Below are positions 31,524-49,581 of a stretch of 64,000 nucleotides of DNA, one piece after another. The notes beneath the pieces are model-generated. The model had not been told where the DNA came from. It worked only from the letters and a program-made list of their open reading frames with translations, and searched no databases. Within the stretch, counting starts at the first letter, position 1. Every line of letters begins with the position of its first letter. This DNA comes from Rhodopseudomonas pentothenatexigens (GTDB taxonomy: Bacteria; Pseudomonadota; Alphaproteobacteria; Rhizobiales; Xanthobacteraceae): contig NZ_UFQQ01000020.1 of the NCBI RefSeq assembly GCF_900218015.1, positions 1 through 64,000 of the forward strand. Direction: 5' to 3'. Both the position numbers and the translations under genes were made by a program.

Positions 31524-31971
31524 CGAAAGGCTCCTGGTTTGAACGGGAGCCGCCGGATCGAGTGCGCGTAAGGGGGATGTGAAGCTCACCTGCCGCGGAC
31601 CGTAACCGGCGGCAGGGACGACGCTGTCAGACGCGCGCGTCAACCCATGCCGCGGGACTGCGGCGGCGGGCTTTGGCGGTGGTGAGCGCGTTGAGCATGG
31701 CGCGTTGATAGGAGCGGTCGCGGCCCCGGTCAACCCGCGATCCGCGCAGATCTCAGGCTCGATCATGACGACGCTGCCGCCCGCACGGCTTGCCAATCGC
31801 ACTATTGGGCTGTATTCCCCGCGCACTGGTCGGCAGTTCACCAAGGCGTCGCTGTCCCGCATGGGAAGCTAAACCTGCCTGTTTCCTCGATCGGCTGACA
31901 CTTGTCCCGTGCCGCCGTCGTAAGTCAGCGACCAACGACATTCTTCGTTCGGCACGATCGAGGATGAGGTC
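31524..31971. other. Divergent intergenic region of about 450 bp
   Basis: Between the PaiB-like gene (minus) and the DUF2087 gene (plus). Only out-of-frame readings with unnatural composition are open. No clear promoter pair, RNA gene or repeat was seen. The part from 31730 to 31960 is less regular in codon-like periodicity, as expected for non-coding DNA. Confidence 0.4.
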
Positions 31972-40641: not shown

Positions 40642-42156
40642 CTACTTCCTGAACGTCTTGATCTCCGACACGCTGCCGTCGCGATAGGTCAGCTCGACTG
40701 ACACTGATTTCACCCCGGGCGCCAGCTTCAGATACGGCTGTGCGCTGCTCGGGATCGCCACCGGGTCGCGCATGTCGCACGGCGGCATCTTCAGCACCTT
40801 GTCGGGCACCGCGCTGTCGATGCCGATCCGCGCCTCGCGGATCGCGCAGCGATACGACATCAGATGCGTGTAGTAGACCAAGAGGCCGTTGAACTCGCGG
40901 AACGACAGCCAGCTCGTCGCGGTCATGTCGAGGATCTTGCGCTGGTCGCGCAGCAGCGCCGCCTCCGGCTCGAACTTGATCGGAAACGGCCCCTGCATCT
41001 CGCCCTGGGCATCGATGTAGCGCAGCTCGATGATGCCGGCCGGCGCGTCGGCGGGAAGCTGGATCGACGGGTTCGGCATCCGCTTGCGGGTGCGCGGATC
41101 GAGCGCATCGATGAATCCGGTCTCGCGGAATTCGCCGTCGCCGATCCGCCACGAGATCCCGAGCGTCGGATCGGCGATCGAGAACGACACCGTCCAGCCG
41201 CCATTGTGCCGGGAGAAGCTGGCGATCGGCGCATTCAGCGCCTCCGCGGTCGGCGGCTTCAGAGGCGCCACCGGCGGCAGCGCGGCGACCTTCTGCGGCG
41301 GCTCGGCAGCGCCGGCGGCGGCCGTGCCCGGCTGCCGCCGCCCGTTCAGGAACACGTCGTCGACCATCTGGTCGAAATACACCGGCACCTGCTTGTGGCC
41401 GATCTGATCGGCCAACTCGCTGACGGCGCGGCGGGTGCGCTGCGCCACCTGCACCAGGTTCTCGCCGGGATCGAGCAACTGCTTGACGAACACCCGGGTG
41501 AACACCGAGTTCGGATTGCTGTCGCTGTCCGACAGCCGGTCGAGCGCGGTCTGCCGCGGGCCGGCCGAGAAGATCGAGAACACGCCTTCCGGCAGCGTGG
41601 TCATCGGCGCCAGCCCGCCGCGCCCGGCCAACGCGCGCACGCCGCGGCGTTCGAACGGATTGTTGCGGCAGGCGTCGAGCACCAGGATCGCGGTGCGGGC
41701 GCCGCGGTTCTGCAGCCGGTCGACGATGCGGTCCGCCATGATCGAGGCGTCGCGCACCAGTTCCTCCTGGCCCTCGGTGGCGGCCGGCACGTCGGTCGGC
41801 AGCAGGTAGTTCTGTCCGGCGATTTCGAAGCCATGGCCGGCATAGAAGAAGAACGCGGTGTCGCCGGGCTCGATCGTGGTGTCGAAAGCCAGCAGGCTCT
41901 GGCTGAAGGCGGCGCGGGTCTGGTTCTCCGCCACCATCACCTGGAAGCCGAGCCTCTTCAGCGCATCGCCGATCGTGCGCGCGTCGTTGACCGCCTTCTG
42001 CAGCCTCGGCACGTTGCGATAATCATCGTTCCCGATCACCAGCGCGACGCGCTTCGCAGCCCATGCCGGACCGGCGACCAGCAGCGCCAGCATGCAGGCG
42101 ACAGCCGCGAACAATACAGCTCCGTGCCGCGTGCAGGGCCTTTCGATCGGTCGCAT
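40642..42156 (-). CDS. Caspase-like (peptidase C14) exported protein
   Basis: A 504-residue protein with a signal peptide (to about AWA-AKR), then a caspase-fold domain: RVALVIGNDDYRNVPRLQKAV, the catalytic His in AFFFYAGHGFEI and the catalytic Cys in AILVLDACRNNPFERR. A Pro/Ala-rich linker follows at about residues 275-305, and a C-terminal domain of about 200 residues ends ELTYRDGSVSEIKTFRK. Such metacaspase-like proteins are numerous in Rhodopseudomonas; their targets are unknown. Its start lies 102 bp from the first CRISPR repeat. A diverged copy of its last 30 codons is found at 49476-49569, on the other side of the CRISPR-Cas module. Confidence 0.9.
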   Translation of the reverse strand: MRPIERPCTRHGAVLFAAVACMLALLVAGPAWAAKRVALVIGNDDYRNVPRLQKAVNDARTIGDALKRLGFQVMVAENQTRAAFSQSLLAFDTTIEPGDTAFFFYAGHGFEIAGQNYLLPTDVPAATEGQEELVRDASIMADRIVDRLQNRGARTAILVLDACRNNPFERRGVRALAGRGGLAPMTTLPEGVFSIFSAGPRQTALDRLSDSDSNPNSVFTRVFVKQLLDPGENLVQVAQRTRRAVSELADQIGHKQVPVYFDQMVDDVFLNGRRQPGTAAAGAAEPPQKVAALPPVAPLKPPTAEALNAPIASFSRHNGGWTVSFSIADPTLGISWRIGDGEFRETGFIDALDPRTRKRMPNPSIQLPADAPAGIIELRYIDAQGEMQGPFPIKFEPEAALLRDQRKILDMTATSWLSFREFNGLLVYYTHLMSYRCAIREARIGIDSAVPDKVLKMPPCDMRDPVAIPSSAQPYLKLAPGVKSVSVELTYRDGSVSEIKTFRK

Positions 42157-42258
42157 TCCAGTCCCTCAAAACGCAGCGGCCGGATCGCGGCCGCCTGCGC
42201 CATAGTCGGTCAGAACCCGAGCACGGTTCAACCGAAAAGGACGTCGGGCGCGGCTACG

Positions 42259-44405
42259 ATCCGGCTTGGCCCTCAATCACCAGTCCGCTAAACTCAAATG
42301 CTCGAATTCGTGCGGAAGCTCTGCGTTTCGGTTGGCCCTCAATCACCAGTCCGCTAAACTGGGAATGCAGAAGGATTCCATACTTGATTCGTTTCGGTTG
42401 GCCCTCAATCACCAGTCCGCTAAACTTACTTCGACGCGGTGCTGGCCGCCAAGAAGGTTTCGGTTGGCCCTCAATCACCAGTCCGCTAAACTCAGTGCCT
42501 TCTGCGCCTCGGCCATCGCCTTGTTTCGGTTGGCCCTCAATCACCAGTCCGCTAAACTCACGCGGCGAATTCCGCCGAGCCCTGCGGAGTTTCGGTTGGC
42601 CCTCAATCACCAGTCCGCTAAACTGTTTCCGAAGCCGCTGTGCCTCACCGCGCTGTTTCGGTTGGCCCTCAATCACCAGTCCGCTAAACTCCGATCAGCG
42701 CCCATGCATCGAGGCGGTCGTTTCGGTTGGCCCTCAATCACCAGTCCGCTAAACTGTGCTGCGCGCCAATCCGTCCGCGCTCGCCGTTTCGGTTGGCCCT
42801 CAATCACCAGTCCGCTAAACTTCCGCAGCCGATCCTGTTCGACCGCAATACGTTTCGGTTGGCCCTCAATCACCAGTCCGCTAAACTCGCGGCTGGATGG
42901 TCGAGCTTTCGGCTCGCGTTTCGGTTGGCCCTCAATCACCAGTCCGCTAAACTGCATCCTCAGGTTTGCGTCGGCTGCTTTTTGTTTCGGTTGGCCCTCA
43001 ATCACCAGTCCGCTAAACTGACGGCTTCGGCATCAAGGCCGACACGATGGTTTCGGTTGGCCCTCAATCACCAGTCCGCTAAACTCCTGGATAAGCGCAC
43101 CGTGACGTTGCGTGAGTTTCGGTTGGCCCTCAATCACCAGTCCGCTAAACTCACGGACCGCGCCGCGCTCGGCCCGCTTCTGTTTCGGTTGGCCCTCAAT
43201 CACCAGTCCGCTAAACTCTCGGCCGCAGCGGCGCCGACGCCACCGTGGTTTCGGTTGGCCCTCAATCACCAGTCCGCTAAACTATCCGCGCGCCGCGGCC
43301 ATGGCCGCCGCGGGTTTCGGTTGGCCCTCAATCACCAGTCCGCTAAACTATCGAGCCCGACGCTACGGCGCCGGCCGCAGTTTCGGTTGGCCCTCAATCA
43401 CCAGTCCGCTAAACTCGAAGATCAGGGAAGGCGACACGGCGCCACGTTTCGGTTGGCCCTCAATCACCAGTCCGCTAAACTGTCGGCGGCAAGGTGACCG
43501 GCGTCGAAATTGTTTCGGTTGGCCCTCAATCACCAGTCCGCTAAACTCTGCTCGACACCGACGCCCGGATCATTGCCGTTTCGGTTGGCCCTCAATCACC
43601 AGTCCGCTAAACTCTCGTCGGGCGAGACGTCGTATCAAGGCCTGTTTCGGTTGGCCCTCAATCACCAGTCCGCTAAACTCCGATGGCGAATGATGGTCGT
43701 GACTACGTGGTTTCGGTTGGCCCTCAATCACCAGTCCGCTAAACTCTTGTCCGCCATCTCCCGCCCCTCCCCGCTGTTTCGGTTGGCCCTCAATCACCAG
43801 TCCGCTAAACTCACACCCAGGTCTCGCCGTCCGCCTTCACCGTTTCGGTTGGCCCTCAATCACCAGTCCGCTAAACTATCACCAGTTTTGTATTCTTCCG
43901 GTTTCAAGTTTCGGTTGGCCCTCAATCACCAGTCCGCTAAACTTGCCACGGACGAGGTGCGGCGATGACATCAGTTTCGGTTGGCCCTCAATCACCAGTC
44001 CGCTAAACTGCGCCGGGCGCCAGCTTGAAGAAATCCGGCGTTTCGGTTGGCCCTCAATCACCAGTCCGCTAAACTGCGACGCGGCGTCGATAAATCAGTC
44101 TATGAGTTTCGGTTGGCCCTCAATCACCAGTCCGCTAAACTGATGCTTTCGACGCGGAATGTTGGTATATTGTTTCGGTTGGCCCTAAATCACCAGTCCG
44201 CTAAACTGACAACACAATCAGGGAGCAAGCGACATTCGTTTCGGTTGGCCCTCAATCACCAGTCCGCTAAACTTAGATGTAGGTGCCGGCGTTGTAGTCG
44301 ATGGTTTCGGTTGGCCCTCAATCACCAGTCCGCTAAACTTACAGCCGTCTTCACGAAACCGAGCGCTTCGTTTCGGTTGGCCCTCAATCACCAGTCCGCT
44401 AAACT
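42259..44405 (+). CRISPR. Type II-C CRISPR array, 33 repeats and 32 spacers
   Basis: The repeat is 36 bp, beginning GTTTCGGTTGGCCC and ending CCAGTCCGCTAAACT. Repeats start at 42259, 42325, 42391 and then every 66 bp, with spacers of 30 bp; only spacer 7 (42691-42719) is 29 bp. The first repeat (42259-42294) differs at positions 1, 3, 4, 5 and 7 and is otherwise perfect. The repeat at 44172 has one change (CTC to CTA at its positions 14-16). All other copies look identical. Strand is given as plus because the tracrRNA anti-repeat pairs with the plus-strand repeat from its first base and because the 3' end TAAACT resembles the -10 box found in type II-C repeats. The minus direction cannot be excluded. 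72 bp separate the last repeat from the cas2 stop. Confidence 0.98.
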
Positions 44406-44477
44406 GCCTACCGAACCATCCGCTTGCAAATACTGGAGAATTTCTGATCGACGAGGTCCCGAATCGCACCTGACGGG
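44406..44477. other. Array-cas2 junction, candidate acquisition (leader) end
   Basis: These 72 bp lie between the last perfect repeat and the cas2 stop. Because the degenerate repeat is at the opposite end of the array, this side is the likely site where new spacers enter. The sequence is less GC-rich near the array (CAAATACTGGAGAATTTCTG). No protein is encoded. Confidence 0.5.
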
Positions 44478-44834
44478 CTAGAAGAGCGCGTATTGATCCG
44501 GATTTTTCGGGCTCTGTTCGCGATTTCTTCCGCGATAGGTTCGGATGTTCTCATATTGCTTGTCGGTGATGCCGATGATGTGGATCTTCCCGGACGACGG
44601 CATCGCCTGCTCGACCTTTCGGGCATAGGCTTCAGCCTGCTCCTTGCCGGCGCAGAAGCGCAGATAAACAGAAAACTGAGACATTTCGAAGCCGAGATCG
44701 AGCAGCTTTGTGCGAAATCCGGTCGCGCTCTTGCGCTGCTTCTTGGTCCCCACCGGAAGATCGAACAGCACCAACAGCCACATGATTCGATAACCTGACA
44801 GCGCGGGCGGCGCCTGGTGTTCGGCGGTCGCCAT
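44478..44834 (-). CDS. cas2: CRISPR-associated endonuclease Cas2
   Basis: A 118-residue Cas2 with the strand-1 motif MWLLVLFDLPVGTKKQRK (catalytic/metal Asp) and the usual FEMSQFSVYLRFCAGKEQAEAY. The N-terminal 17 residues before MWLL are an extension seen in alphaproteobacterial Cas2. The start lies one base after the cas1 stop, so the two are coupled. It forms the spacer integration complex with Cas1. Last gene of the cas operon. Confidence 0.96.
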   Translation of the reverse strand: MATAEHQAPPALSGYRIMWLLVLFDLPVGTKKQRKSATGFRTKLLDLGFEMSQFSVYLRFCAGKEQAEAYARKVEQAMPSSGKIHIIGITDKQYENIRTYRGRNREQSPKNPDQYALF

Positions 44835-44835
44835 T

Positions 44836-45735
44836 TCAAAAGCCGAGCGGCAGGCCGGGTTTCGGCAGGATCAGGCGATCCGTCTCGCCGGCGCAAGCCT
44901 TGGCAAGCGACGTTGCGAGACGTTCGAGGCAGGTCATCATCGGACTGAGGCCGTCGTCGACCGGCAGGTCGACCACCATCGTGCGAGCCAGCGCGGCCTT
45001 GGCTTCGCTGGTCAGCTCGACGACACCACTCTCCTTCAGCCGATATACTTCGCGATCGACGAGCGGCCGAAACGGCTCCATCAAGTCGTCCACCAGAACC
45101 ATCGGGTTCCCGCGATTGGAATGCATCAGGCCGAGGCTCGGATGAAGGCCGGCCGCCATCACGGCGCGCGCCGTGGCGGCCCGCAGGATCGCATAGCCGT
45201 AGTTCAACAGCGCATTGAGGCCTTCGCCCTCCTGATCGCGACGGAATTCGCGTCCCAGCAGCAACGGCCAATAGCGCCGCGCGGCCTCTGCTTCGACATT
45301 GTCCGGATCGCCGGCGCGAACCTTCCGGGCCAGCAAGCGAAAGCCGCCGGCTTCGGCACCGACCGCATCGAGCGTCGCCCCCTGAGCAAGGATCTTCGCT
45401 TGCACGATCTGCTGCCACAGCCGCTTCTTCAGCGGTGCCGACGCTCTGGCCTGATCGCTCATCCTTCCGGATTGCGCGTGGTGGCCATCCACCGGCCAGA
45501 CCACCGCAGCGGGCCGATGATTGGCTCCGCACAGTACCATCGGCACTCCACGAGCAGCGAGTGTCACGAGGAGATTGTTGGAGTACGTCAGGCCGTGCGC
45601 GTTGGCGACGACTGCGGCAAGATCGTCGAGCGGCACCCGCGCGAGTTCCGCCCCGTTTTCAGCGATGGTCATGAAACCGCGACTGACCGCGAGGTGCCGT
45701 CCATCGGTCGCCACTTCAACCACTCGGCCGACCAT
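44836..45735 (-). CDS. cas1: CRISPR-associated endonuclease Cas1 (type II)
   Basis: A 299-residue integrase read from the ATG at 45735: MVGRVVEVATDGRHLAVSRGF is the normal start of type II-C Cas1, and AGGAG lies 9 bp before it. Frame is open back to a GTG at 45798. Active-site motifs: the Glu in EGEGLNALLNYGYAILRA, the His in LGLMHSNRGNPMVLVDDLMEPFRP and its Asp/Glu. With Cas2 it cuts and joins new spacers at the leader-end repeat. Sits 90 bp after cas9 on the same strand. Confidence 0.96.
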   Translation of the reverse strand: MVGRVVEVATDGRHLAVSRGFMTIAENGAELARVPLDDLAAVVANAHGLTYSNNLLVTLAARGVPMVLCGANHRPAAVVWPVDGHHAQSGRMSDQARASAPLKKRLWQQIVQAKILAQGATLDAVGAEAGGFRLLARKVRAGDPDNVEAEAARRYWPLLLGREFRRDQEGEGLNALLNYGYAILRAATARAVMAAGLHPSLGLMHSNRGNPMVLVDDLMEPFRPLVDREVYRLKESGVVELTSEAKAALARTMVVDLPVDDGLSPMMTCLERLATSLAKACAGETDRLILPKPGLPLGF

Positions 45736-45825
45736 CGCCATCTTCTCCTGCTGGTCCTGCACACGCACCAGAGCAAGAGCATGGGACTCGACCACCACAC
45801 ACGCAACGCGTGTATCGTGACGTAG

Positions 45826-48800
45826 TTAACGCGGGTCGATACGCCAGACCCGTCCGAGCTCGTCGACTCGAACCGGCACGGCCGCCATCTTCTTCAGCGT
45901 ACCGTAGGACGCCATCAACCAACGGAAAGGATCGATGTCGTTGTCCGTCGCATGGCGTTTGTCGAGATTGCCGGTCTCGTTGTGCGCGGCCAACTTGAAC
46001 CGGCCGGCTGCCGCGTCGAGCCGGTGTACCACCATGATCCTGGTCCGGCCTTCGTGTTCGAGCCGTATCAAATCGCCCTTGTGGATGCGCATCACCAATC
46101 GCGCTCCCGCGCTCTCGGTGCGCCACCTCGGCACATGCGGCGTCTTCGGCCCGCAGTTGGACCTGTTGGCATCGAACCGCCGGACCGCTTCGCCGCTCCA
46201 TTTGCCATCGGCGGTCTCGAACACCTCGACGCAGAAATTCTCGCCGGCGCTGTAGGCTTTGTAGGGCCGACCGGTGGCTCGATCGACGACGGGCACGAGA
46301 TAGTCCGTCTTCTCTTTCTTGAGAAGCCGCACATGGCGCAGCCCGTGCCTGAAATGCGGATTGTCGGACGGCTCCGTCAACTGCCGCAGCGCGTCTGCGA
46401 GAGCGACACCGTTCCGTTTCGCGGCATCGACGTGATCGCGGACAATGTCGCGCAGCCGCCGATCCCGGATACGGCCGATCTCGTTCTCGTTCAACGTCTC
46501 CACCGCTTTGCGGTAGACGAGATTCGCGGGTTCACGATCGTCGTCGTCGACAGGCTCGGGTCGGTCGAGCAATCCGTAGGCGCTGTCCTCGTGCAGCTTG
46601 CCCTGCACGCCGTGATCCGGCTTGTGCGACACGACCATCTTGTCGAGCGCCGCCTTGAGATCGTCGCGCATCGACGGCCACGGCAATTCGACGACGAATT
46701 TCTCGCGCTCGTCGTCGTAGGCGTTCGCCATCTTCCACAGCAGCGATCGATCCGTCAGCGCGGCGACCAGACCGTCGATGGCGTGGTGCCGGTGATCGGC
46801 ACGATTCTTCACGCCGGAGAACTCCATGTCGTCGGTGGACGCCAGAAATGCCTCGGCCTTGTCCTGGACGCCGGCGTAGTTGTGGTCCGGTAGCAGCGCG
46901 TTCAGGCCCCATTTGCCACGCAGCAAACCAGTGAGACGGCCGGGGACCACCCAGATCCGGTTCGGATCCGTGACAGCTCCGAGATACTCCTTGGCCAGTC
47001 GCGCCAGCCAGCCGGTCTCGTTGAGCTGTCGCGCCAAAAAGCCGCCGCGCTTGTCGAATTGTTCGCGCGCATCGGCGTCGAACCGCCAACGCTTGTTGCG
47101 CGGTAGCGCTGCCGCCCGCGTTGCGATATCGTCCCAAGCATAGCGGCGGCCCTGGACAAGCGGGCTGGAGCCGAAAGCCTCGAACGGAGTCTGCTTCCGC
47201 TTGTGGCGGTTGGCGTAGCGCATGCAGACGATCTTGTTGGCCGCGCTGTCATCCAACGTCATCGCTACCGGCAGGATGTGATCGATATCGACCTCCTCCG
47301 ACAGCAACCTCTCGATGCCGATCTGCTCGCCCGTGTAGACGCACTTGCGATCCAGTGGATCGCGCAAGTTCAATTCCTCCCACAGCCGCATCTTCAGGAG
47401 GTTGCGCGGATTGGCTGGAAAACCGAGTTGCTCCAGCTCGGCCGCACGGGCACGGTTCTTGTCCTGGTTCTTTCGCTGTTCGCGCTGCACTTGCGCCTTT
47501 TGATCCTCCGACAATCTCAACGCGCGGGTGAACTCGATGGAGATTTCCGTCGGGGGCCCGTAGGTTCGGATCAACTCGTTGACGAGGCGACGCAGTTGCC
47601 CCAACCCGATATGAACGGTCGGATTGGGAAATTGGCCGAACTGCCGTTCCTTGCCGTCGCGTGCATCACCGCTGCCGACCACGGCGTCGGCGAGCCATTT
47701 GCCGTAGTACGGCAGATAGTCGAGATCGCCCCCGGTCGGAAGTTTGGCGTGGTCGTAGCCGATGCGCTTAGCTGCCTCGTAGTAACCGGCGCCGCTGACG
47801 CCGTCGTCCCCAACCTCATTCTGCATCACCGGAACGATCTTCTTGATCGCCCGCAAACCCAAACGGCAGTGGCCCTCCGGCAAGCTGGTGTTCGCCACCC
47901 GCGCGGCAGCTTCCGGACCGAGGCCGCATTCCTGCTCCAGCCAGTCCACCAGTTCGGCCTCGACCTCTACGGTCATCAGCTTCTCGACGATCGCGATCTG
48001 GCGCTCCAAGGGAAATCCCCGCCAAGCTTTGCCGAACCCGTTCTTGTCCGACAGCCGTGCGGCAGTCGCGTCGCCGTCGAGCGCAGCACGGCGATCCGAC
48101 TCGAGGTTGAACTTGGATTCCGCAGGCAACTTCAGAAGCGTCCGCAACTTGTCGAACTTGACCTCCTTGCTGCCCAGCAGAGCGAGGGCGACGGCATCGC
48201 TCTGCGCCTTGGTCAGTTTTCGCGATCCTCTGCCGGTCTCGCGGATCTCCAGATTGCGCGCCTCCGACAGAATTCGAAACCGCTGTGCCAACGGATGCGC
48301 CCACGGCGCCCGATAGCCTTCCGGGTCCTCGTTGAACGGTCGTGTCGCCGGATCGAGCGAGCACTTGCCGACGATCGGGTCCTTCAACGGTCGCTGATAG
48401 AAAATGATCCGCTCGATCTCCCGGCACGCCCCCTCGGTCATCGTCGCATGGTGTGGCGCCTGCGCTCTCCAGATCGCATGAAATTCCTGGAGCAGCAGAT
48501 CGCGGGTCGGATAGAAGTCGTAGGAGGCCTTCGTTCCGGTGATGATCGCACGCGCTCTGACGCTTTCTGGTGCCATGGCCGGATCGAGCACGTCATCTCC
48601 GAATAGGCGCTTGCGCACCTTCGCCCACGCCTTCTTGCGGGCATTGCCGGTCAGATGGTCCTTGCCGATCCGCTGCAGTTCAGCTCGGATCGCGGTCTGC
48701 CGTTCCGCGTAGGTATCCGAGTGACGTCGATCCGCGAAGAACTCGCCGAGGGTTTGTGCGCCTTGGCTCGCCATGCTGTCGCGCAGGCGGGACGCGGCCT

Positions 48801-49269
48801 GCTTGATGGCGCCGTCCTCGCTGTTCTTCTTGTTGTCCGTCTTGCGATTGGAGAGAAAGCCGCGGCGCTGATTGAGATGAAACAGCGCGCGACCGACATG
48901 ATGCGCCGGCAGCCTGTCGACCAGGGCTCTGGCCCTCAACTGATAGGGATCGAGCCCGGCCAGAGCTTTGCGCGCCGCGGTCTCTTCGGGCATCAGGCCG
49001 TGCTTCACCAGCGCATCCATCAGTTGGCTGCGGCGCAGGACGAATCGATCGCGCCGCTTGCGAGCGCCCCGCGCCATCCGGCGGTCGACGGCATTGGACG
49101 CTTTGCTCTGCGGGTCGCGGCCATCGGGAAATATCCGCACCCCGCCGGGCCCGAGGCCGACCGGTTCGAAACGATCGCCGCGTTGTTGGAGAGTGGTGAC
49201 AAACCAGCCGAGCGAATTGGACCCGAGGTCCAGCCCGAGGCGATACGGTTGTGGAAGCCTCTCCAACAT
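45826..49269 (-). CDS. cas9: CRISPR-associated endonuclease Cas9 (type II-C)
   Basis: A 1147-residue Cas9, within the usual type II-C range. Segments in order: RuvC-I LGLDLGSNSLGWFV with Asp14; Arg-rich bridge helix (residues 63-80); REC lobe; RuvC-II PTEISIEFTRAL with Glu579; HNH domain with Asp663, His664 (EEVDIDHILPVAMT) and Asn687 in the NRHKRKQTPFEAF motif; RuvC-III HHAIDGLVAALT with His829 and Asp832; then the PAM-interacting C-terminus, which ends VDELGRVWRIDPR. All catalytic residues are present, so both strands of target DNA should be cut under crRNA:tracrRNA guidance. No Csn2 or Cas4 gene follows, which defines type II-C. The ATG at 49269 has GGAG 7 bases before it. Confidence 0.98.
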   Translation of the reverse strand: MLERLPQPYRLGLDLGSNSLGWFVTTLQQRGDRFEPVGLGPGGVRIFPDGRDPQSKASNAVDRRMARGARKRRDRFVLRRSQLMDALVKHGLMPEETAARKALAGLDPYQLRARALVDRLPAHHVGRALFHLNQRRGFLSNRKTDNKKNSEDGAIKQAASRLRDSMASQGAQTLGEFFADRRHSDTYAERQTAIRAELQRIGKDHLTGNARKKAWAKVRKRLFGDDVLDPAMAPESVRARAIITGTKASYDFYPTRDLLLQEFHAIWRAQAPHHATMTEGACREIERIIFYQRPLKDPIVGKCSLDPATRPFNEDPEGYRAPWAHPLAQRFRILSEARNLEIRETGRGSRKLTKAQSDAVALALLGSKEVKFDKLRTLLKLPAESKFNLESDRRAALDGDATAARLSDKNGFGKAWRGFPLERQIAIVEKLMTVEVEAELVDWLEQECGLGPEAAARVANTSLPEGHCRLGLRAIKKIVPVMQNEVGDDGVSGAGYYEAAKRIGYDHAKLPTGGDLDYLPYYGKWLADAVVGSGDARDGKERQFGQFPNPTVHIGLGQLRRLVNELIRTYGPPTEISIEFTRALRLSEDQKAQVQREQRKNQDKNRARAAELEQLGFPANPRNLLKMRLWEELNLRDPLDRKCVYTGEQIGIERLLSEEVDIDHILPVAMTLDDSAANKIVCMRYANRHKRKQTPFEAFGSSPLVQGRRYAWDDIATRAAALPRNKRWRFDADAREQFDKRGGFLARQLNETGWLARLAKEYLGAVTDPNRIWVVPGRLTGLLRGKWGLNALLPDHNYAGVQDKAEAFLASTDDMEFSGVKNRADHRHHAIDGLVAALTDRSLLWKMANAYDDEREKFVVELPWPSMRDDLKAALDKMVVSHKPDHGVQGKLHEDSAYGLLDRPEPVDDDDREPANLVYRKAVETLNENEIGRIRDRRLRDIVRDHVDAAKRNGVALADALRQLTEPSDNPHFRHGLRHVRLLKKEKTDYLVPVVDRATGRPYKAYSAGENFCVEVFETADGKWSGEAVRRFDANRSNCGPKTPHVPRWRTESAGARLVMRIHKGDLIRLEHEGRTRIMVVHRLDAAAGRFKLAAHNETGNLDKRHATDNDIDPFRWLMASYGTLKKMAAVPVRVDELGRVWRIDPR

Positions 49270-49284
49270 TATCTGCTCCGTCTC

Positions 49285-49325
49285 TTGACGGACGCATTAC
49301 AGCACTGCACAATTCTAACGTGCAA
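49285..49325. promoter_or_regulatory. Interleaved divergent promoters of cas9 and tracrRNA (candidate)
   Basis: Minus strand (cas9): -35 TTGCAC (49320-49325), 18 bp, -10 TGTAAT (49296-49301), giving a leader of about 20 bases before the ATG. Plus strand (tracrRNA): -35 TTGACG (49285-49290), 17 bp, -10 CACAAT (49308-49313), start near 49320. The boxes of the two promoters overlap head to head, so one polymerase would block the other. Box matches are partial; this is inference from sequence only. Confidence 0.45.
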
Positions 49326-49430
49326 TGCTCCTTATCGGCAGACTTACTGGTTTTAGCGGACTGGTGATTGAGGGCCTCCCGTTAACAAGCTTATGCACAA
49401 AATGGGGCATCCTGCGGGATGCCCCTTCCG
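49320..49430 (+). ncRNA. tracrRNA
   Basis: The anti-repeat spans about 49350-49386. It has 25 bases (49352-49376, TTTAGCGGACTGG...GGGCC) perfectly complementary to repeat positions 10-34, and after a 2-base mismatch continues with CCCGTTAAC, which pairs with the first seven repeat bases with one small bulge. This lower stem, bulge, upper stem layout is that of a crRNA:tracrRNA duplex. A 9-bp hairpin (49404-49425) ends the RNA. The reading in the opposite direction (into the cas9 leader) is possible, since hairpins also exist at 49270-49330, but lacks a terminator. Exact ends are not defined. Confidence 0.8.
49404..49425. terminator. Hairpin ending the tracrRNA, possibly bidirectional
   Basis: GGGGCATCC (49404-49412) pairs perfectly with GGATGCCCC (49417-49425), loop TGCG. 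On the minus strand it is followed by ATTTTGTG, so it may also stop transcripts coming from the chemoreceptor gene before they enter the cas operon. On the plus strand only TTCCGTT follows. Confidence 0.65.
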
Positions 49431-49475
49431 TTCGTGATGATGGTTTTTGGCTGCTGCGCGTCGGGACGTAACGGA

Positions 49476-49569
49476 TTACTTCCTGAACGTCTTGATCTCC
49501 GACACGCCGCCGTCGCGATAAGTCAGCTCCACCGAGACCGACGTCGCGTTCGGCGCCAGCTTGATCACA
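49476..49569 (-). pseudogene. 3' remnant of a second caspase-like gene
   Basis: Read on the minus strand, this ends ...LAPNATSVSVELTYRDGGVSEIKTFRK and a TAA (49476-49478). The intact caspase-like protein at 40642 ends LAPGVKSVSVELTYRDGSVSEIKTFRK. Protein identity over the last 27 residues is high, but several silent and replacement differences show that this is not a recent copy. No coding sequence for the rest of the protein exists; on one side is the chemoreceptor stop 13 bp away, on the other the tracrRNA terminator. Confidence 0.85.
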
Positions 49570-49581
49570 ACGGCGCCGTGC

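Follow-up and report, generated by a model that had tools for sequence, protein, structure and literature searches.

The window, by which we mean the whole 64,000-nucleotide stretch of Rhodopseudomonas pentothenatexigens DNA analyzed here, comes from a genome of 5.38 Mb in 69 contigs and contains three cas genes on the minus strand, each a single open frame. The cas2 gene (positions 44478..44834, 118 aa) matches TIGR01573 at 60 bits (curated cut-off 24.5) and PADLOC Cas2_II; cas1 (44836..45798, 320 aa) matches the type II family TIGR03639 at 231 bits (curated cut-off 120) and PADLOC Cas1_II; and cas9 (45826..49269, 1147 aa) matches TIGR01865 at 551 bits against a curated cut-off of 100, with domain matches to HNH_4 and RuvC_III. 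Family matches and aligned residues indicate that both nuclease domains of Cas9 are intact: D14, E579, H664, H829 and D832, the five catalytic residues that the original prediction had placed in a protein of this length, are all found at those places and are invariant in an alignment of the window with seven relatives, as is N687 of the HNH motif.

A Cas9 with RuvC and HNH motifs, a type II Cas1 and a Cas2 encoded next to cas9, and a tracrRNA with an antirepeat, as read from the sequence, assign the locus to type II. PMC3936727 defines subtype II-C by a three-gene cas operon lacking csn2 and cas4, and this is the arrangement found here, with no match to csn2 or cas4 among the three cas genes and the neighboring genes tested (DUF6880, caspase, MCP and AraC genes). 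The type II-C anatomy that had been claimed for this locus, namely cas9-cas1-cas2, tracrRNA and a CRISPR array, is complete.

The array occupies positions 42259..44405, with the crRNA sense on the plus strand as judged from the strand of the antirepeat and the side of the 3' motif described below. Its 33 repeats are 36 nt long; 31 are identical, one (44172) has a single mismatch, and the first has five, because its 5' end, the opening 7-8 nt, is host DNA. By alignment, the seemingly degenerate first repeat is a repeat truncated at the junction between an island and host DNA, so that the predicted count of 33 repeats and 32 spacers stands, with the qualification that it comprises 32 whole repeats and a truncated one. 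Spacers are 30 nt long in 31 cases and 29 nt in one (spacer 7); judging from their families, Cas1 and Cas2 would insert the 30-nt spacers into the array.

Rhodopseudomonas palustris XCP encodes the closest Cas9 found (98% identity), followed by R. rhenobacensis (83%), a Hyphomicrobiales MAG and Nitrobacter winogradskyi (79% each), a Tardiphaga MAG (75%) and two Xanthobacteraceae MAGs (68%). By this measure, the locus belongs to a type II-C lineage that is also present in Nitrobacter and related MAGs. Within the genus, this Cas9 is found in 2 of 16 genomes, including that of the window. A third genome of the genus encodes a different Cas9, with 30% identity over 330 residues (L012, G012:C12:42477-43466).

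The tracrRNA gene of the original prediction is supported by an antirepeat at 49350-49385 on the plus strand, with seven mismatches to the complement of the repeat, and by conservation of the gene in the window and seven relatives; its predicted ends are at about 49320..49432. Across these eight aligned loci, the block from the antirepeat to a 3' hairpin (49404-49425, plus strand) is highly conserved, and the sequence between cas9 and this block drifts, save for TTGAC and, 17-18 nt further on, CAC..T. These conserved letters belong to a promoter-like pair, TTGACG-N17-CACAAT (49285..49313, plus strand; 9 of 12 consensus letters), which occurs once, with 0.1 occurrences expected, and is the sole such pair detected by a promoter scan of the gap between cas9 and tracrRNA. 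Positions 22 and 26 of the repeat covary with their antirepeat partners, both sides having changed in the two Xanthobacteraceae MAGs, and compensated changes are also seen in the 3' hairpin among the aligned loci. Such compensatory changes support a crRNA:tracrRNA duplex, although the independent events are few and those in the duplex probably fall on one branch. Given this covariation, the repeat part of each crRNA would pair with the antirepeat, and the duplex would then load Cas9. In the scan, the hairpin is called as a minus-strand terminator but not as a plus-strand one, because few T follow it on the plus strand; the 3' end of the tracrRNA is therefore a predicted one. Elsewhere in the window, at 31827-31880, there is another RNA element, a COG3860 RNA motif (RF02940) that scores 75.7 bits (gathering score 42.5).

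The array appears to be transcribed in the plus-strand sense, opposite to the cas operon, a direction on which the antirepeat strand, the side of the 3' motif and a terminator at the cas2 end of the array agree. This terminator, a hairpin followed by a T run between array and cas2 on the strand of the array, is present in 6 of the 8 aligned loci and thus supports transcription towards cas2. It is absent from the remaining two, the window (44406-44477) and XCP, and without it, array transcripts in the window may run antisense into cas2.

Each repeat holds a possible weak promoter, TTGGCC-N17-TAAACT (for example, 42332..42360, plus strand), with 8 of 12 consensus letters. TTGGCC, the 17-nt spacing and TANNNT are present in all eight loci (the window and seven relatives). 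As in Neisseria, whose repeats bear promoters (PMC7038990 and PMC5006608), crRNAs may thus start at each repeat, with their 5' ends inside the spacers. It is also plausible, though we consider it the less probable account, that crRNAs derive from a single external promoter followed by RNase III processing, with no promoters in the repeats. At 8 of 12 letters the repeat pair is a weak match, and TTGGCC lies mostly within the paired part of the repeat and may be kept for pairing alone. The promoter scan of 42150-44480 called no promoter at all, the repeat pair included, which argues against a single external promoter in this region. Moreover, repeat letters 33-35 vary mostly without compensation (7, 6 and 2 of 8, respectively, are paired with the antirepeat), and the last hexamer of the repeat changes among TAAACT, TAGAAT and TATAGT mostly without antirepeat change, yet T1, A2 and T6 are constant. 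We accordingly prefer repeat-borne promoters, as a possibility.

The span originally assigned to the system is 42259..49430, but the island that contains it extends to approximately 49581. Alignment with empty sites in three genomes (G004, G005 and G006), in which the caspase and MCP genes are about 180 bp apart and which share the flanks of the window, delimits the island to 42267..49581, the right end being approximate. On the left, the window matches the empty sites up to ...CGATCCGG, after which the repeat begins from about its 8th base. At the right edge, before the MCP stop codon, there is an 86-bp fragment of the 3' end of a caspase gene (49477..49562, minus strand), which is closer to the genes of other species, G005 (79/86 identical) and G004 (78/86), than to the resident caspase gene at 40642-42156 (73/86). 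We infer that the module, inserted here between the MCP and caspase genes, probably arrived by recombination from a strain that carried it beside a caspase gene. XCP has the same island junction as G000, the genome of the window, and none of its few spacers visible at contig ends matches any of the 32 in the window; given the shared junction and the lack of common spacers, the spacers have probably changed after insertion. The conserved unit across the loci is tracrRNA-cas9-cas1-cas2-array. This module moves as a unit: its neighbors differ among the clade loci examined, one copy is on a plasmid, and the empty sites are clean. The adjoining caspase gene was considered as a CRISPR accessory and rejected. 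It is present in 16 of 16 genomes of the genus, 14 of which lack this Cas9, and tblastn finds no caspase in the flanks of six other clade loci (L003-L008), several of which end at contig ends.

The original prediction held that the targets and the PAM could not be known from sequence; both are partly readable from public genomes of relatives. Searching the spacers against phage and prophage sequences and aligning the flanks of the hits, as had been suggested, matched five spacers and yielded a candidate motif. The array was searched against 391 genomes of the family, with two candidate stretches scored per genome, so that the matches are a lower bound. Spacer 24 (43812..43841, plus strand, as are all spacers given here) has a perfect match in a prophage primase gene of G006, with the 3' flank TCGAAC, and spacer 20 (43548..43577) matches the same genome with two mismatches near the putative right end of the prophage (3' flank GAAGAC). 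The 87% GC spacer 16 (43284..43313; three mismatches, GCGGAC) and spacer 2 (42361..42390; five mismatches, CAAGAC) match one replication gene of a G002 prophage, and spacer 21 (43614..43643), found together with spacer 16 on one G002 contig, matches head maturation protease genes of the prophage family with four to five mismatches and the 3' flanks GCAGAC, GCAGAT and GCAAAC. The target regions in both genomes encode terminase, portal, tail sheath and baseplate proteins and are prophages. Thus, five window spacers, one of them without a mismatch, match a contractile-tailed prophage family of two other Rhodopseudomonas genomes, which suggests that the known targets of the system are contractile-tailed prophages of other members of the genus.

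For the other 27 of the 32 spacers, no convincing target was found in genome searches that scored two stretches per genome, and an order-wide search of 397 genomes (again two candidate stretches each) added none. Queried with the array, collections of phages and plasmids returned no more than weak matches, apart from the array of Nitrobacter hamburgensis, and scans of viral contigs with the primase and replication genes yielded one locus each. Among the 16 genomes of the genus, the terminase of the prophage family (at least 88%) is found in two, G002, which supplied the query, and G006, both without this Cas9; G013 has a distant terminase (32%), and there is no match to the prophage terminase in G000 and G007, the two genomes with this Cas9. 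This distribution fits immunity, in numbers too small for a test.

Several candidate targets were discarded. Spacer 4 has a match with five mismatches and a flank that fits the motif (GTTGAT), in a housekeeping gene that we take to be yqeY-like, and spacer 1 has one with three mismatches and a fitting flank (GGAGAT) in G208, in a gene without a PHROGs match; both spacers were excluded from the PAM counts. Self-targeting was rejected as well: from 42 matches in the own genome, the eight with new loci were checked, and they include five matches with five to six mismatches (spacers 3, 12, 14, 15 and 16), none followed by RAY.

The motif was first read from the flanks of the window-spacer matches, and the spacers of relatives were examined afterwards. 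We predict the PAM to be 5'-NNNRAY-3' directly 3' of the protospacer, with a firm A at +5 and a likely R and Y at +4 and +6, respectively. In the full scan, 138 spacers (32 from the window and 106 from relatives) were compared with 108 phage loci totaling 1.69 Mb. Counting the best match per spacer, NNNRAY follows 7 of 7 protospacers with up to four mismatches, 9 of 11 with up to five, and 0 of 4 with six, the last figure being as expected if those matches are due to chance. The background frequency of RAY in the same loci is 5.9% per position. With decoys, matches with up to five mismatches numbered 0 for 138 reversed spacers, 0 for 138 complemented spacers, and 1 (at five mismatches) for 20 sets of 138 shuffled spacers, and RAY was absent from all best decoy matches. 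Five of six window spacers have RAY (tail value 4e-6), the motif having been chosen on these, and NNNRAY is also seen for 4 of 5 spacers of R. rhenobacensis, a set from which the motif had not been derived (tail value 6e-5). When all listed matches with up to five mismatches are considered, each homologous or overlapping locus being counted on its own, RAY follows 33 of 37. The phage set was picked because window spacers match its founders, and the number of window matches is therefore not an independent count; the flank played no part in the choice.

Position by position, A at +5 is found in 6 of 6 matches with up to four mismatches in a smaller first set (2.43 bits) and in 8 of 9 with up to five. 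At up to four mismatches, +4 (1.00 bits) and +6 (1.15 bits) do not rise above the noise of the 5' flank, the best column of which reaches 1.02 bits at -3. A purine at +3 is also common (8 of the 9 RAY spacers of the full scan). The exceptions in the phage set are spacer 8 (five mismatches, GCGGCG) and R. rhenobacensis spacer p10 (five mismatches, GCCGAG); in addition, 2 of the 14 matches of R. rhenobacensis spacer m13 with up to five mismatches lack the motif (TGGTGG in L075 and TGATAC in L159). Off-motif matches outside the phage set involve spacer 23 (two mismatches, CAGGCC), spacer 15 (three, GCGGTC), spacer 16 (four, GTCCCC) and spacer 19 (four, GCCAAG and TCGAAA), and some or all of these may be chance matches in GC-rich DNA. 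The PAM-proximal third is not spared from mismatches and contains 13 of the 27.

The well-supported protospacers all come from one phage family, and several matches of one spacer are at homologous positions, so NNNRAY might conceivably reflect, instead of a PAM, the codon usage of conserved phage genes in which the matches happen to lie. We consider this very improbable. The motif was counted once per spacer, across different genes and on both strands, with spacer 24 and m13 running against the gene and spacers 21, 16 and 2 along it; RAY is infrequent in the same loci, at the 5.9% given above; no 5'-flank column is as strong as A at +5; and the five chance matches in the own genome at up to six mismatches (eight loci checked) have no RAY. 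Read as a PAM, the motif implies that Cas9 would cut spacer-matching DNA with 5'-NNNRAY-3' on the 3' side of the protospacer. A literature search retrieved no paper giving the PAM of this Cas9, and a word search for Nitrobacter and Rhodopseudomonas in the main texts of PMC7606464 and PMC9617884 finds neither.

The locus is thus very probably a complete type II-C CRISPR-Cas immune system, ordinary in kind and predicted to be active. The earlier description of it as apparently functional finds indirect support in the open frames, the intact catalytic residues, the conserved RNA parts with their compensatory changes and the motif-flanked phage matches. A system intact in sequence could nonetheless be silent, its array an archive of old infections against which protection has been lost. 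The array terminator of the other six aligned loci is absent from the window and from XCP, and most phage matches carry one to five mismatches, some of them near the PAM. We regard this as unlikely: each of the three cas genes is an open frame, and Cas9 shares 98% identity with its XCP counterpart; spacers have probably changed since insertion, as XCP shares the junction, yet its few visible spacers match none of those in the window; and spacer 24 has an exact match with a motif-bearing flank.

Beyond the locus itself, our confidence is evenly divided over a broader proposal, that a Cas9 lineage of Nitrobacteraceae combines a short, relaxed PAM, 5'-NNNRAY-3', with a short tracrRNA, in which about 80 nt run from the antirepeat to the end, and with repeats that double as pairing partner and promoter. 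With a predicted PAM, a short RNA pair and named targets, the system is testable at once. Should these readings hold, the mid-sized Cas9s gain a member with a predicted PAM, and the study of type II-C immunity in purple bacteria gains a phage-host pair.

Among known systems, that of Nitrobacter hamburgensis X14 (cas9 NHAM_RS20800) has a Cas9 78.6% identical over 99% of the length, and the plasmid that encodes it also bears an array with similar repeats; unlike the locus in the window, this system resides on a mobilizable plasmid, plasmid 1, together with RuBisCO and carboxysome genes. R. rhenobacensis DSM 12706 (L008) shares the main repeat in addition to the 83% identical Cas9, its tracrRNA block is 98% identical over 92 nt, and its spacers, too, match the prophage family found here, next to the same 3' motif, whereas it has two arrays on opposite strands, other neighbors and a terminator-like hairpin of its own between array and cas2. 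The second of these arrays (L008 14549-15309), with 12 repeats of which the last is degenerate, lies on the opposite strand beside the first, with 21.

The PAM of Neisseria meningitidis is longer than NNNRAY and different from it. In gene order and orientation, the type II-C system of that species is like the one described here, with cas9-cas1-cas2 and an array read against the cas genes (PMC3936727), a direction that is predicted in the present case; likewise, promoters within the repeats are known in N. meningitidis, whereas in the present locus they are predicted.
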